A DNA stretch of 40,691 bases from Candidatus Rokubacteria bacterium GWA2_70_23 (GTDB taxonomy: Bacteria > Methylomirabilota > Methylomirabilia > Rokubacteriales > CSP1-6), in NCBI GenBank assembly GCA_001788395.1, contig MGBT01000002.1, positions 4,192 through 44,882 of the forward strand, given 5' to 3'. The notes beneath the pieces are model-generated. The model was given only the letters and a program-made list of their open reading frames with translations, had not been told where the DNA came from and searched no databases. The number at the start of each line of letters is the position of its first letter. Position 1 is the first letter of the stretch. The position numbers were made by a program, and so were the translations under genes. Shown here piece by piece: positions 4,598-12,283 of the stretch.

Positions 4598-4850
4598 TGG
4601 GCGCCCCGGCAGGGGAGCGGCTACGTCCTGGCGCGGATGGAGCCCATGGACGAGGCATGGGCGCAGTCCCGTCCCTCGCGGTCGTGGAGCACGGCCTCGA
4701 GGAAGACGACGGGCCGCCCCCGCTCGATGACGCTGCCCTCGCCCAGCACGGGACCCGCCGTCACAGGCACGAGAAAGCTCACGGTGAGCGAGGAGGTGGA
4801 CAACCTCTGGCCGGGCTCGAACCGGGTGTGGGCGGCCAGCGCCATGCACA
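4598..4850 (-). pseudogene. Fragment of PaaI-type thioesterase gene (partial duplicate of 10357-10607)
   Basis: Side-by-side comparison with 10357-10607 gives roughly 85-90% identity by eye, from gggcgccc(c/a)ggc(a/g)ggggagcggctac to gccagcgccatgcaca. Confidence 0.9.
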
Positions 4851-5132
4851 CCTGCTTGGTGTCGAAGTCGGTGATGATGTCGCCCGCCGCGATCCCGGCC
4901 GTCTCGGCGGTGCTGTCGTGGACCACGTCGGAGATCAGCACCCCCTTGGCCTCGCGCAGGCCGAAGCTCTTCGCCAGCTCGGGCGTGAGGGCTGGATGGA
5001 CACGCCGAGCCAGCCCCGCGTCACCTTGCCCTTGGCCACCAGCTCCGTGTAGATGCGCCGGGCCATGTTCGCCGGGATGGCGAAGCCGATGCCGGCGTTG
5101 CCGCCGGAGCGGGAGAGGATGGCGCTGTTGAT
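4851..5132 (-). pseudogene. Fragment of htrA (PDZ1 region; partial duplicate of about 11260-11544) fused directly to the thioesterase fragment
   Basis: gtcgaagtcggtgatgatgtcgcccgccgcgatcccggcc...gagaggatggcgctgttgatgc matches intact htrA at roughly 94% by eye, with a 1-nt deletion near 4989; similarity stops at 5132. Confidence 0.9.
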
Positions 5133-5339
5133 GCGGGCGGAGCGCGGGCCCGGGAGGGTTGACGGAGGCCGTCCCTGGCTGAGCGGCGTGTCGGCCAAGC
5201 TGACTGGGCCCGCGGTTCCCGGGCGAGGCGGGCGCCTCGCCGCCGAGCCGGGGCATTCCCTGACGGGGCCGGCAGCCGGCGCGCCGGGAAGAGGGCCTTC
5301 ATCCCGCCTATGCACAACGCGGGAAGTACTACGAGCGCG

Positions 5340-6518
5340 TCAAATCGTACCCCGCTCGCGCATCGCTTGAATGTGGTGGCTATTCATCCCCAAGACCTCG
5401 CCGTAGATGGCCTCGTTGTGCTCGCCGAGGCGCGGGGGAAATGCCAGCTCCGCCCGGCCCTCGTCGCTCACCTCGGCCAGCGGCGGCAGAACGACCTCCG
5501 TGCCGCTTCGAGCGTCCTTCGCGCGAGTGAACGCCTTCTTCAGCAGCGGCTCCTCGAGCACATCGTTCAGCGAATTCAGCTTCGCCACGGGGACACCGAT
5601 GCGGTTCAGCGCCGCCAGCAACTCGATGGTTGTCAGCTGTCGCGTGCAGTCGGCGATGCGCGCGTTGAGGCGGCCCACGTCGGCGATGCGGCCCGCGTTG
5701 CGTTGATACTCCGGCTCGGCCAGGGACTCGAAGCCGGGCAGCCTGGTGACCGCTTCCCACTGCCGGTCGTTGCCGACCGTGACGTACACGTATCCATCGC
5801 GGGTCGGGTACACCGACACCGGCGCGAAGAACTGGTGCGTGTTACCCCGCCGCGTCACCTTCTCGCCGAGCGCCACGAGCATCAGCGGGCTTGCCATCCA
5901 CGTTGCCGCCGAGCGGAACATTGACACGTCAATGCGCGATCCCTCACCCGTGACTGCGCGCTTGTACAGCGCCTTCATCACCGCCCCGTACGCATGTTCC
6001 GCCGCGCCGAGATCCACCATCGGCAGCCCGAACACGAGCGGCGTCCCGTCGGGCTCACCCGTCAGCTCCATCCACCCCGCTCGCGCCTGCAGAACCGGAT
6101 CGTACGCGGCCTCGTCATGCTCGGGTCCAAAGCCCGACACGCCCACCCAGATGAGATCGGGGCGAATGGCCTTCAATGATTCGTACTCGATGCCGAGCTT
6201 GGCATAGCTGGAGACGCGGTTATTGGTGGCAAACATGTCGACAGGGAGTCGAGCAATCAGCTCATGCAAGAGCGCGCGGCCTTCCTCTTCCGCAAGATTC
6301 AGCGTGATCGCCTGCTTGCCGCAGTTGTTCGGCAGGAAATAGCTCGCCATCCCGTCTTCGCCGAGACATTTCCGCCCGACGTGACGGTTGGGGTCGCCGC
6401 GCCCGGGGGCCTCCACGCGAATCACGCGCGCCCCATCACGGGCGAGGCGCTGCGTGAGGAATGGCAGAGTCGTGGCCTGCTCGAGCGAGAGGACGGTGAG
6501 GTTGGAAAGAAGAGGCAT
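5340..6518 (-). CDS. CaiB/BaiF (type III) CoA-transferase, 392 aa
   Basis: MPLLSNLTVLSLEQATTLPFLTQRLARDGARVIRVEAPGRGDPNRHVGR...YDPVLQARAGWMELTG...GEGSRIDVSMFRSA... family hallmarks over the full length. Confidence 0.93.
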   Translation of the reverse strand: MPLLSNLTVLSLEQATTLPFLTQRLARDGARVIRVEAPGRGDPNRHVGRKCLGEDGMASYFLPNNCGKQAITLNLAEEEGRALLHELIARLPVDMFATNNRVSSYAKLGIEYESLKAIRPDLIWVGVSGFGPEHDEAAYDPVLQARAGWMELTGEPDGTPLVFGLPMVDLGAAEHAYGAVMKALYKRAVTGEGSRIDVSMFRSAATWMASPLMLVALGEKVTRRGNTHQFFAPVSVYPTRDGYVYVTVGNDRQWEAVTRLPGFESLAEPEYQRNAGRIADVGRLNARIADCTRQLTTIELLAALNRIGVPVAKLNSLNDVLEEPLLKKAFTRAKDARSGTEVVLPPLAEVSDEGRAELAFPPRLGEHNEAIYGEVLGMNSHHIQAMRERGTI

Positions 6519-7160: not shown

Positions 7161-7262
7161 CCGGCGCATGAGCGGCGGCGCATGAGCGGCATGAAGCGCC
7201 CATCTCGGTCATGGCGGGTCAGTGGTGCCAGAGCCACTTTCCCCCACCGGCCGTGACAGAGG

Positions 7263-7347
7263 GGCCGCGACTCCAGCCCCAGCAGGCTCTTGCCGCGGGT
7301 GTTGGCCTTGAGGGCGACGGTATCGTCCGGCGTGTCGCCGATGATCG
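7263..7347 (-). pseudogene. Fragment of htrA PDZ1-PDZ2 linker, fused in frame to an unrelated N-terminus (ORF 7097-7432)
   Basis: [28 protein letters not shown] versus [28 protein letters not shown] in intact HtrA (10811-12283); ORF starts MLSPRDDLQELDELQEDDASKQ behind GGAGG. Confidence 0.85.
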
Positions 7348-7583
7348 TTTCGGTGTTCGGCTCGTCCTGCTTGGAGGCGTCATCTTCCTGAAGTTCGTCG
7401 AGTTCCTGCAGGTCATCACGGGGCGAGAGCATGTCTCGCTACCTCCGATTAGCAGGTTCACCTCGGTGGCGCCCCTCGGCGCCGCGGCGTCGACCAGCCC
7501 GCCACAGCCTCCAGGGTCGCGAGGACCTCGTCGAAGCGCTCGCGGAGGTCGCTCAGCACGTGATCGGCGTCGACGCGTCGAGG

Positions 7584-7820
7584 TTAGTGGATCGCAACCA
7601 GGGCCTTCTTGGCTTTCAAGGGCAGCTCGACGGGAACGAACCAACCTCGGGGGTACAGGTAATCTTCGCCCGATTCGTCAAGGACGCGGATGTCAGACAG
7701 CCTGTCGTTGCGCTTCGGCTTCACGACGCGATAAATCTTGCCGACGATAAGGTCGGCATCGTACTCGCCGTTGTGGATGCACACCGCGAACTCCCCCGAC
7801 CTGCCTCCTCGGCTCGTCAT
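7584..7820 (-). CDS. Small hypothetical protein (78 aa), cassette-like
   Basis: MTSRGGRSGEFAVCIHNGEYDADLIVGKIYRVVKPKRNDRLSDIRVLDESGEDYLYPRGWFVPVELPLKAKKALVAIH; protein-like composition, DESGEDYLYP..(W/Y)FVPVELP pattern. Confidence 0.7.
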   Translation of the reverse strand: MTSRGGRSGEFAVCIHNGEYDADLIVGKIYRVVKPKRNDRLSDIRVLDESGEDYLYPRGWFVPVELPLKAKKALVAIH

Positions 7821-7825
7821 GATCG

Positions 7826-8059
7826 CTAGTCCAAATTCCTCTTTCGCTTGACGTAGACTCGCCCGATCCCATGGGCTTCAAACCAGTGAAGCTCGGCCCG
7901 GTGGAGCGTTCCGTCGTCGAACCGGATCGTGGCCTCGCCCTTCATCTTACGCCATCGCCCAGCCCCAAACCTCTGGATCAGATGTGTCCGAATCCGGACC
8001 GACCGTCCGGCGCTGATAGCCTCCGCGTTCCTGATTCTGCCGACGATCGTGAAGTGCAT
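7826..8059 (-). CDS. Small hypothetical protein (77 aa), cassette-like
   Basis: MHFTIVGRIRNAEAISAGRSVRIRTHLIQRFGAGRWRKMKGEATIRFDDGTLHRAELHWFEAHGIGRVYVKRKRNLD; 5 nt upstream of the 78-aa ORF. Confidence 0.7.
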   Translation of the reverse strand: MHFTIVGRIRNAEAISAGRSVRIRTHLIQRFGAGRWRKMKGEATIRFDDGTLHRAELHWFEAHGIGRVYVKRKRNLD

Positions 8060-8369: not shown

Positions 8370-8394
8370 CGAAGTCGGTGATGATGTCGCCCGC
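8370..8394 (-). repeat. 25-bp htrA-derived fragment
   Basis: cgaagtcggtgatgatgtcgcccgc is identical to 4863-4887 (htrA pseudo-copy) and differs at two positions from intact htrA. Confidence 0.8.
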
Positions 8395-8708
8395 TTTGCT
8401 TCAAGCAACGCGAGACCTGGCTTGCCTGCGAAGTCGCATGCAACAACGAGATCCCAATTGGGCTTGTTGGCTCCCCGCGGATGAACCAGCCACCAGGCGG
8501 CAAGATCATTCCAGCAGTCGGTGCCGGGAAGGAACTGGGCGCCGCAGTCTTCCACGCAGGCCTCTGCGGGTTCGCTGTGACCCCTCGGCTGCCAGACCGG
8601 AGGGCGAGCAACGGCACAATCGCTCAGACCAACGAGCTCCGAGAACTCAGCCGGAAAGCCCCGGCGCGCCGTCCAGTCCAAAATATGCTTTCGGCTGCCC
8701 CGAGTCAT
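8395..8708 (-). pseudogene. Truncated cassette-like hypothetical protein
   Basis: MTRGSRKHILDWTARRGFPAEFSELVGLSDCAVARPPVWQPRGHSEPAEACVEDCGAQFLPGTDCWNDLAAWWLVHPRGANKPNWDLVVACDFAGKPGLALLEAK is protein-like up to the junction with the 25-bp htrA fragment, then meaningless. Confidence 0.65.
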
Positions 8709-8720
8709 CGGCTCCAATCC

Positions 8721-8778
8721 GGATAACGGTCGGCGTCAGCGGCGCCGCCTCGGCGACCGCTGCACGCTGTTGTTCGGC
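8721..8778 (-). other. attC-like integron recombination site
   Basis: Minus strand: GCCGAAC-AAC-AGCGTGCAGCGG-TCGCCGAGGCGGCG-CCGCTGACGC-CGACC-GTTATCC. L'' GCGT(G)CAGCGG pairs with L' CCGCTG-ACGC leaving one unpaired G in L''; AAC/GTT ends; about 58 bp; immediately 3' of the ORF ending at 8795. Confidence 0.75.
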
Positions 8779-8794
8779 GTCACGCTCGTCACTC

Positions 8795-9379
8795 TCACGG
8801 CTTTCGCCTGGCCAGGAACAGAACATCGGTGGCGATCTCGGGCGCGGAGTATAGCTCTACATCGTTGCCGCATACGGCCGCGAACCTGTCTCGGGCATCG
8901 TGCTTCCACGTCTTGCTGCGTGATTGGTGCTGATACACCGCGAGCCAGTCGCCCGATTGCAAGACCTCCCACACGGCTGCGATGTCCTCCGTCGTGACGT
9001 GCTTGCCTGAGGGCTTGGCTGGAGCGATACCCGTGTAAGGATCCAGCAGGACAATCTTGGAACTCGCCACGCTTCGCACGGACTCGACTACGGCCTGTCG
9101 ATATTGCCGGCGGCGCTGAGGAATGAAGTGCGCGTCAATTACGACGATTCGGCGGTGTAGCAGGTCTCCGAGGCTGCGTACAGCGGTCACCTCCCGAAAG
9201 AAGGACCAGACTGCGGGCGAGATCGGTACTTCGCCCTTGCCGTTTAGCAAAGCGCCACGCTTCCCGGGGCGCAGGTAGGCCACCTGAACAATCGCCGCCA
9301 GCGAGTGGCGCTCTGCAAGGTGGGCCAGCGTACCCCATTTGACCAAGTCACGCTGGTCTGCGTACCAAGTGTCCTTCAC
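8795..9379 (-). CDS. Hypothetical cassette-like protein (about 194 aa, GTG start)
   Basis: VKDTWYADQRDLVKWGTLAHLAERHSLAAIVQVAYLRPGKRG...KIVLLDPYTGIAPAKPSGKHVTTEDIAAVWEVLQSGDWLAVYQHQSRSKTWKHDARDRF...LFLARRKP; start behind aaagg. Confidence 0.75.
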   Translation of the reverse strand: MKDTWYADQRDLVKWGTLAHLAERHSLAAIVQVAYLRPGKRGALLNGKGEVPISPAVWSFFREVTAVRSLGDLLHRRIVVIDAHFIPQRRRQYRQAVVESVRSVASSKIVLLDPYTGIAPAKPSGKHVTTEDIAAVWEVLQSGDWLAVYQHQSRSKTWKHDARDRFAAVCGNDVELYSAPEIATDVLFLARRKP

Positions 9380-9608
9380 GCCTGCTGGCCTTTCTTGTAC
9401 GCCGAAGTCTATCTCTCTTGAACTGCGATATCTGGCTGGGTAGGTCTGTATAGCACGACGAACGAGCCCGGCCGAGCTCCGTCGACACTCGCGTTTACGC
9501 GACCTTGCAGGGTACGCCCTCGGTCCCTTGCCGTGATACACCGCGAAGCGCTGCAAGCAATCAGCTGGGCCTCCGCGGCCAGCCCGATGTGTTTCCCGGC
9601 CTCCGAGG

Positions 9609-10360
9609 TCATGACAGGAACATCCGGTCGGCAGGGCTGCGGACTCCGGCCGGGCCCCGGTTGAGCACGTGGGTGTAGATCATGGTGGTGCTCACGTCGC
9701 GGTGGCCAAGCAACTCCTGGACCGTGCGGATGTCGTGGCTCTCCTCCAGCGGGTGGGTGGCACACGAGTGACGGAAGGTATGGCACGCCGCCTGCTTGGC
9801 AATCCCGGTGCTGCGGACGGCATCCTTCACGGCCCGCTGGAGAACGGATTCGTGGAGGTGGTGACGGCGACGCTGGGCGGTGAGGCGGTCCACGTACATG
9901 CGCGTGGCGGGGAAGACCCATTGCCACCCCCAGTCCCGGCCGGCGTTCGGGTACTTGCGCGTCAGCGCGTTGGGCAGCTCGACCCAGCCGGCGCCGTGCC
10001 GGAGGTCAGCTTGGTGTTGCTCGCGAGCGCGCTCGAGGTGGGCGATCAGCGCGGCCGTGACCGCGGCCGGCAACATCGTCACCCGATCTTTGCCGCCCTT
10101 GCCGTCGCGGATGACGATCTGGTTCGTCGCGAAGTCGACGTCCTTCACGCGTAGGCGACAGCATTCCAGCAGGCGAAGTCCCGCGCCGTAGGGCAGCAGC
10201 GCCCTGAGCCGTGGCACGCCATCGAGCCGCTGGAGGACGGCACGGACCTCATCCCGCGTCAGCACGACGGGCAGATGCTGGGGCCGCTTGGCCCGGACGA
10301 CGTCGTCGAGCCCCGGAAGCTCGACGCCGAGCACCTCGCGATAGAGGAAGAGCAGGGCGC
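9609..10360 (-). pseudogene. intI: Integron-type tyrosine recombinase (IntI family), N-terminal domain missing, catalytic domain intact
   Basis: GALLFLYREVLGVELPGLDDVVRAKRPQHLPVVLTRDEVRAVLQRL...; catalytic R (GAGLRLLE), HxxR (HTFRHS), LLGHRDVSTTMIYTHVLNRG with Tyr; IntI-specific insert (HQADLRHGAGWVELPNALTRKYPNAGRDWGWQWVFPATRMYVDRLTAQRRRHHLHESVLQRAVKDAVR). Coding begins abruptly next to the thioesterase stop; first available start is GTG at 10334. Confidence 0.9.
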
Positions 10361-10376
10361 CCAGGCGGGGGAGCGG

Positions 10377-10811
10377 CTACCTCCGGGTACGGATGGACCC
10401 CACGGAGGAGGCATGGGCACACTCTCGCCCTTCGTGGTCGCGCAGCATCGCCTCGAGGAAGACGACCGACCGCCCCCGCTTGACGACGTGGCCCTCGCCG
10501 ACCACGGGGCCCGCCGTCACAGGGGCGAGAAAGCTCACGGTGAGCGAGGAGGTGGACAGCATCTGGCCGGGCTCGAACAGGGTGTGGGCGGCCAGCGCCA
10601 TGCACATGTCGACATACGCGCTGATGATGCCGCCCTGCACCCCGCCCCCAGGGTTCAGGAACTCGTCCTTGACGGCGAACTCGATGGAGACGCGACCTTC
10701 GTCCACGGCCAGCACCCGGGCGCCCAGGAGGCGGGCGATGGGCGGGTCGGGGCGGCCGTGGTGATCGGTGATGAGCGAGCGGAGCCGGGCGAGCTGCGCG
10801 CGCTCCCCCAT
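10377..10811 (-). CDS. PaaI-family (hotdog) thioesterase
   Basis: [98 protein letters not shown]...; TGATG overlap with htrA. Confidence 0.88.
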   Translation of the reverse strand: MGERAQLARLRSLITDHHGRPDPPIARLLGARVLAVDEGRVSIEFAVKDEFLNPGGGVQGGIISAYVDMCMALAAHTLFEPGQMLSTSSLTVSFLAPVTAGPVVGEGHVVKRGRSVVFLEAMLRDHEGRECAHASSVGSIRTRR

Positions 10812-12279
10812 CAGCCCCGGGCCACGGTGAACGCCACGTAGAGCGCCTGGGACCCGCGCTGGAGCAAGAGCGTCACCCGGTCGCCTTCCTTGAGGTCCCG
10901 GGTGGCGCGCTCGAAGTCCTGCATGGACCGCACCCGCTGCCGGTTGACCTCGCGGATCACGTCGCCGCGCTGGAGCCCGGCCTCGGCCGCCGCGCCGTCC
11001 TCCTCCACCCGGACCACGACGACGCCCTCGGTGCCTCTCAGGTTGAGCTGGCGGGCGACTTCCGGGGTGATGGGCCGCAACTCCAGCCCCAGCATGTTCT
11101 TGCCGCGGTTGTTGGACTTGAGGGCGACGGTGTCGTCCGGCGTGTCGCCGATCTTGATCTCCATGGTCTTGTGCGTCTTGTCGCGCCACACGGTTACCGG
11201 CACGCCCTTGCCCGGCGGGGTGAGCGCGACCACCTTCTGCAAATCCTGTGGGTTGTCCACCTTCTTGGTGTCGAAGTTGGTGATGATGTCACCCGCCGCG
11301 ATCCCGGCCTTCTCGGCGGGGCTGTCCTGGACCACGTCGGAGATGAGGACGCCCTTGGCCTCGCGCAGGCCGAAGCTCGTCGCCAGCTCGGGCGTGAGCG
11401 GCTGGATGGACACGCCGAGCCAGCCCCGCGTCACCTTGCCCTTGGCCACCAGCTCGGTGTAGATGCGCCTGGCCATGTTCGCCGGGATGGAGAAGCCGAT
11501 GCCGACGTTGCCCCCGGAGCGGGAGAGGATGGCGCTGTTGATGCCCACCACCTCGCCGCTCATGTTCACCAGCGGGCCGCCGGAATTGCCGGGGTTGATG
11601 GCGGCATCGGTCTGGAGGAAGTCGTCGAAGGGTCCCCCGCCGAGGGACCGTCCCTTGGCGCTGATGATCCCCGCGGTCACCGTCTGTTGCAGCCCGAAGG
11701 GCGAGCCGATGGCCAGCACCCAGTCGCCGACCTTGATCTTGTCGGAGTCGCCGAGGCTCGCGGCAGGGTACGGGCCGCCGCCCTGGAGGCGCAGGACCGC
11801 GAGGTCCGTGCGCCGGTCCACGCCGATGAGCTTGGCCTTGTGTTTCTTACCGTCGGCGGTGACGGCCTCGATGTCCGTCGCGCGCTCGACGACGTGGGCG
11901 TTCGTGAGCGCGATGCCCGACGGGTCGACGATGACGCCGGAGCCGAGGCTCCGCTGCTGCTGCTCGCGCTCGGGGACCTCGCCGAAGAAGCGGCGGAAGA
12001 ACTCCTCGCCGAAGAACTCCTCGATGGGCGTCCGCCCCAGCGCGCCGCGCGTCACGGTGTTGATGTTGATCACTGCGGGGGCCACCGTCTCGGCGACCTG
12101 GGCGAAGCTCCCGGACGGCACCGGCAGGGCGGCCGGGATCACGCGGGCCTGCATGCCCGCGGGCAGAACGCGGAACGGCTTCCCCACGTCGGCCGTTTCG
12201 GTCCCCCACGTTACGGCGCCGGCCCCGAGCGCCGCTGCCACGAGGAGGAGGACTACCAAAGTGCGGCGCTTGATCGAGA

Positions 12280-12283
<4 letters not shown>
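10811..12283 (-). CDS. HtrA/DegP-type periplasmic serine protease with two PDZ domains (490 aa)
   Basis: Catalytic triad contexts [29 protein letters not shown]; two PDZ domains; N-terminal signal/TM segment. Confidence 0.96.

Follow-up and report, generated by a model that had tools for sequence, protein, structure and literature searches.

The integron-integrase gene (intI) of canonical integrons is divergent from the gene cassettes. A reversed layout has been described for Treponema (PMC3607928), while clusters of attC sites without an integrase are classed by IntegronFinder as CALIN, version 2 requiring by default at least two attC sites (PMC9024848). Rokubacteria and Methylomirabilota are missing from a published set of taxon-specific attC models (PMC8352920), and our literature search found no paper on integrons in either group. 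In this study, we analyzed a stretch of 40,691 nucleotides (the window, 40.7 kb) of contig MGBT01000002.1 from Candidatus Rokubacteria bacterium GWA2_70_23, in which a first-pass annotation, made from the letters alone, had proposed an attC-like site at 8721-8778. We are highly confident (probability about 0.95) that this site is an attC, belonging to the first cassette of a sedentary chromosomal integron that is located between degP-thioesterase and dnaJ-clpB in a genome of the Rokubacteria lineage. The integron is partly decayed, has a reversed (Treponema-type) intI and belongs to a known kind of element.

The attC site at 8721-8778

The integron loci of the host's bacterial family and the window were scanned for attC sites by geometry, and two covariance models were built, both without the window site. 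Model R1 is based on 44 attC sites from the family of the host (alignment A1). Model R2 is based on 18 attC-like sites from outside that family with their terminal loops trimmed (alignment A3), some of which had come to light through R1; an alignment of attC sites from other phyla (A2) was dropped because MAFFT had misaligned its 3' arm, and R2 was therefore derived from the trimmed arms. R1 matches the window site over its full length (44.8 bits; E 6e-9 in 99 kb of sequence), the runner-up in the window scoring 12.7 bits. R2 likewise gives a full-length match (41.4 bits, E 3e-8), its sole window match at E<=10. The first-pass annotation had named an attC covariance model as the way to check its proposal, and the lack of any model match at permissive thresholds and of homologous sites behind other cassettes in the genome as grounds to drop it. 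Besides the two strong matches, R1 run over the whole genome bin of the window (G000) returns about 50 further attC matches above 30 bits, on 24 contigs. A strict whole-site pattern, in comparison, matches the genome at the window site alone, because attC sites of the family vary in sequence, hence the need for a covariance model. A second attC candidate with perfect R boxes (5312-5421) was rejected, as neither model supports it. BLAST of the attC against plasmids gave only partial matches (E 0.008 or worse) and was not used.

The site has the following parts, all on the minus strand:

8721..8778: attC site, matched by R1 and R2, with a bottom-strand hairpin fold
8778-8772: R'' (GCCGAAC), followed by a spacer at 8771-8769
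8768-8764: L'' (AGCGT), then extrahelical G at 8763 and CAGCGG at 8762-8757
8756: extrahelical T, then CGCC at 8755-8752, loop GAGGC and GGCG at 8746-8743
8742-8737: CCGCTG, then L' (ACGCC) at 8736-8732 and spacer GACC at 8731-8728
8727-8721: R' (GTTATCC), found again in a family site (L058 380-451)
Between G8727 and T8726: predicted crossover

The letters, coordinates and strand originally reported are correct, and so are the inverted AAC/GTT ends and the placement behind the open reading frame (ORF) at 8795-9379: R'' starts 17 nucleotides past the last stop-codon base (8795), and the orientation agrees, with the R''-L'' arm behind the preceding ORF and the extrahelical bases on that arm. The pairing was described as perfect except for one unpaired base. 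Indeed, GCGT-G-CAGCGG (L'', 8757-8767) pairs with CCGCTG-ACGC (L', 8733-8742) and leaves G8763 unpaired, but a second extrahelical base, T8756, had been overlooked. It lies six pairs inside G8763, and a further CGCC/GGCG stem extends beyond it, giving the imperfectly paired stem, its extrahelical bases confined to the R''-L'' arm, that is characteristic of attC. Both bases fall in the model columns (16 and 23) occupied by the extrahelical bases of family sites, column 16 holding G in 16/44 and C in 15/44 of them, and column 23 having A in 27 and T in 3. Read on the bottom strand, the one that recombines, the two bases are A-N6-C, not T-N6-G. T-N6-G is the attC type most easily excised, IntI1 being most efficient on T-N6-G or T-N6-C, and A-N6-C sites are also excised by IntI2*179E and SonIntIA (PMC3053210). 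Strand choice is directed by the first extrahelical base (PMC2727003).

Folding of the bottom strand as single-stranded DNA, which had also been suggested as a check, yields a hairpin as expected (-19.5 kcal/mol, z -2.9). Following established integron biology, the plus strand of the window (the attC bottom strand) would, when single-stranded, fold on itself such that two arms for integrase binding arise from the R and L boxes. The pair of extrahelical bases, present on the R''-L'' arm only, would set strand and orientation, and IntI would cut one strand at G|TT (8727|8726) and join it to attI or another attC.

Integrase remnant, attI and cassettes

The integron elements around the site all lie on the minus strand:

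9609..10376 (minus): intI remnant, TIGR02249 354.7 bits, positions 68-315 of 315
9407..9611 (minus): attI region, from the intI stop to cassette 1, core GTTCAAGAGAGATAGAC at 9423-9407
8727..9406 (minus): cassette 1 (680 bp), starts with TTCGGC at 9406 and ends with G8727 of the attC
8795..9379 (minus): cassette-1 gene, 194 amino acids, GTG start
8395..8726 (minus): cassette 2, truncated, TTATCC at 8726, ATG at 8708, cut at 8394

The intI remnant lies 0.9 kb upstream of the attC site on the same strand, exceeds the TIGR02249 cut-off of 265 and matches IntI4 of V. cholerae (2a3v, solved structure) with E 2e-64, the alignment running across the IntI-specific insertion. It joins the 3' flank of the thioesterase gene at a short stretch of shared sequence (CTGGGCGCCC in the window, CTGAGCGCCT in an intact intI), and with its 5' part missing and an in-frame stop just upstream the gene is not a complete, expressible intI. 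The stretch behind intI is kept in many family members and ends at the first cassette, as fits an attI next to its integrase gene. In the window it is 96% identical over 9659-9400 to contig C43 of G054, a genome bin of the same genus. intI is read toward attI, and the cassettes lie on the same strand. The same holds across the family: intI and attC share a strand in 24/24 loci that have both (L021, L055-L085), with attC downstream. Some loci of Acidobacteria, Deltaproteobacteria, Planctomycetota and Krumholzibacteriota also have this same-direction layout.

Comparison with two relatives places the cassette boundaries. The identity with G054:C43 continues through attI as far as TTCGGC (window, ...GAC|TTCGGC; G054, ...GAG|TTCGGC), after which the sequences are unrelated; the junction between attI and cassette 1 (9407|9406) was placed by this homology. 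With contig C5 of bin G055, which carries the full-length cassette-2 gene, the window is 96% identical over 8724-8394, beginning two bases inside cassette 2. Homology thus breaks at the predicted crossovers, so that cassettes differ between species at G|TT and cassette 1 spans 9406-8727. As read from these alignments, cassettes have been exchanged between species at the predicted points. The cassette-1 protein has no match in NCBIfam, Pfam, PADLOC or PHROGs, and its gene was not found in the 56 other family genomes and the plasmids searched.

The chromosomal position is shared as well. G055 has degP, thioesterase, attC sites with cassettes but no intI, and dnaJ; G054 has the end of intI (at a contig end), attI, four attC sites and dnaJ. 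An integron at this place is therefore common to three species of one genus, as expected of a sedentary integron. In G024, from another genus, the thioesterase-dnaJ gap is 105 bp and holds no attC. The cassettes of the G055:C5 locus (L185 6600-8270), by reading of translations, appear to include a SnoaL-like gene and two candidate toxin-antitoxin-like pairs (DUF433-like and HicBA-like).

The imperfect R boxes of the window site had been taken as a sign of decay or divergence; the reading as decay has to be abandoned. R' after its first G (six bases) belongs to the next cassette, which is why R'' and R' of one attC mismatch; within arrays they agree on average at 5.0 of 7 positions. In the circular form of cassette 1, the R boxes GTTCGGC and GCCGAAC are complementary at 7/7 positions, and with this form restored the bottom strand folds at -26.5 kcal/mol (z -5.2) instead of -19.5. 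Across the family, the R' before a cassette complements the R'' of its own attC at 7/7 positions in 37/69 cassettes (6.6% of shuffled pairs), and GCCGAAC is the commonest R''. The R boxes are explained without decay, which is located elsewhere: in the truncated intI, the G-to-C change at the attI junction and the truncated cassette 2.

The distal part of the integron is broken up, and three further minus-strand features lie there:

8370..8394 (minus): degP fragment, 25 nucleotides, exact repeat of 4863-4887, ends the cassette-2 homology
7963..7992 (minus): probable L'-R' half of another attC, a remnant before cassette 3
7518..7968 (minus): cassette-3 segment, two small ORFs ending at 7826 and 7584

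GGATAAC, the R'' expected for cassette 2's own attC, does not occur downstream; its sole match in the window is the window attC on the other strand, consistent with a lost 3' end of cassette 2. The half-site at 7963-7992 aligns with L'-R' of a G054 attC (L199 6556-6613) and is too decayed for the models, while the cassette-3 segment shares 95% identity with the cassette segment that comes last in G054:C43. Diverged pieces of the degP and thioesterase genes are scattered over 4599-5134, 7259-7342 and 8370-8394, with the intact copies at 10377-12283; it is these pieces that disrupted the distal part and truncated cassette 2. A CoA-transferase family III gene (5340-6518, minus) lies between the integron remnant and degP fragments, and no attC backed by the models was found beside it.

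Integrons look common beyond this locus. An intI match at E<=1e-60 occurs in 27/57 family genomes, and G000 itself carries several intI genes or fragments (contigs C4, C3, C176 and C165), of which that on C4 scores 423.7 bits (positions 1-296) and that on C3 is cut by the contig end. A 6.5-kb integron contig of G000 (C77, L187) is 99.86% identical to one of G054 (C106, L073), reflecting either cross-binning or recent transfer; some G000 arrays may therefore be cross-binned.

Alternative readings of the locus

Several observations weigh against an attC of a chromosomal integron at this position. The training sites of R1 were picked by the geometry scan, and one comes from the window's own genome. 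L'' position 8768 is unpaired with 8732, only one full attC is left in the window, attI has C9407 as its crossover base in place of the G of relatives, and the intI remnant has lost model positions 1-67 (about 67 residues) and directly adjoins the stop codon of the thioesterase gene (10377). Moreover, the genome was binned from a metagenome and rearranged pieces of degP lie near the site; the local order may therefore in part be an assembly product.

A reading of the hairpin as a GC-rich inverted repeat, arisen by chance or of another kind, e.g., a terminator or a repetitive palindrome, is very hard to maintain. In this GC-rich genome, each L box by itself is about as frequent as expected by chance: with at most one mismatch, L'' has 4 matches against 4.3 expected and L' 12 against 13. 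The geometry scan ranks 8721-8778 first only narrowly (12.7 versus 12.6), no Rfam family matches in the window at the gathering threshold, and the top strand folds almost equally well as the bottom strand. The above-chance signal, however, is the architecture of the whole site, not the L boxes alone; the full-length matches to two attC models, the presence of intI and attI, and the exchange of cassettes at the crossover seen in relatives all speak against a chance repeat. It is also improbable, if slightly less so, that misassembly or misbinning set the integron segment beside degP and dnaJ. The diverged duplicate fragments around the segment and the near-identity of C77 to a contig of a congener bin would fit such an artifact, yet in two other bins of the genus attC sites also occupy this locus, their sequence diverged, and the repeat copies differ by 3-13% and are therefore not collapsed repeats.

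A more serious contender, which we place only slightly short of even odds, is a narrower version of our own reading: a true attC that is wholly fossil and moved by no integrase in the cell. The 5'-truncated intI, mutated attI crossover base, truncated cassette 2 and single full attC point in this direction. On the other side, every diagnostic feature of the attC is intact, and the G000 integrases on C4 and C3 could act in trans. Taken as the attC of a sedentary integron, the site may still be recombinable, and any present-day recombination would need an integrase encoded elsewhere. We consider it a rather speculative extension that the Rokubacteria lineage holds a large and so far uncharted pool of cassettes, distributed among several same-direction integrons per genome, in which arrays with a broken local integrase, such as that of the window, are still shuffled in trans by integrases from other places in the genome.

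The locus illustrates that a genuine attC can be recognized by reading raw sequence, points to a bacterial group in which integrons look common, and shows how a three-species comparison yields exact cassette boundaries without experiment.

Comparison with described integrons

Similar to the attC sites known as 59-base elements, the window site has the order R''-L''-L'-R', AAC/GTT cores, central spacers of 3-4 nucleotides, extrahelical bases six apart on the R''-L'' arm and a short terminal loop, and is likewise placed behind a cassette gene. It differs by the A-N6-C on its bottom strand from the T-N6-G sites that IntI1 excises most easily. The reversed integrons of Treponema are alike in layout to all 24 family loci, whereas the host lineage differs, and we do not claim a shared origin. 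The G055 locus resembles a CALIN in having attC sites and no intI; the window differs, with an intI remnant and a single full attC. As in the sedentary chromosomal integrons of Vibrio and Xanthomonas, the place is fixed among related species and cassettes turn over near attI, although the window retains a short remnant with one full attC.
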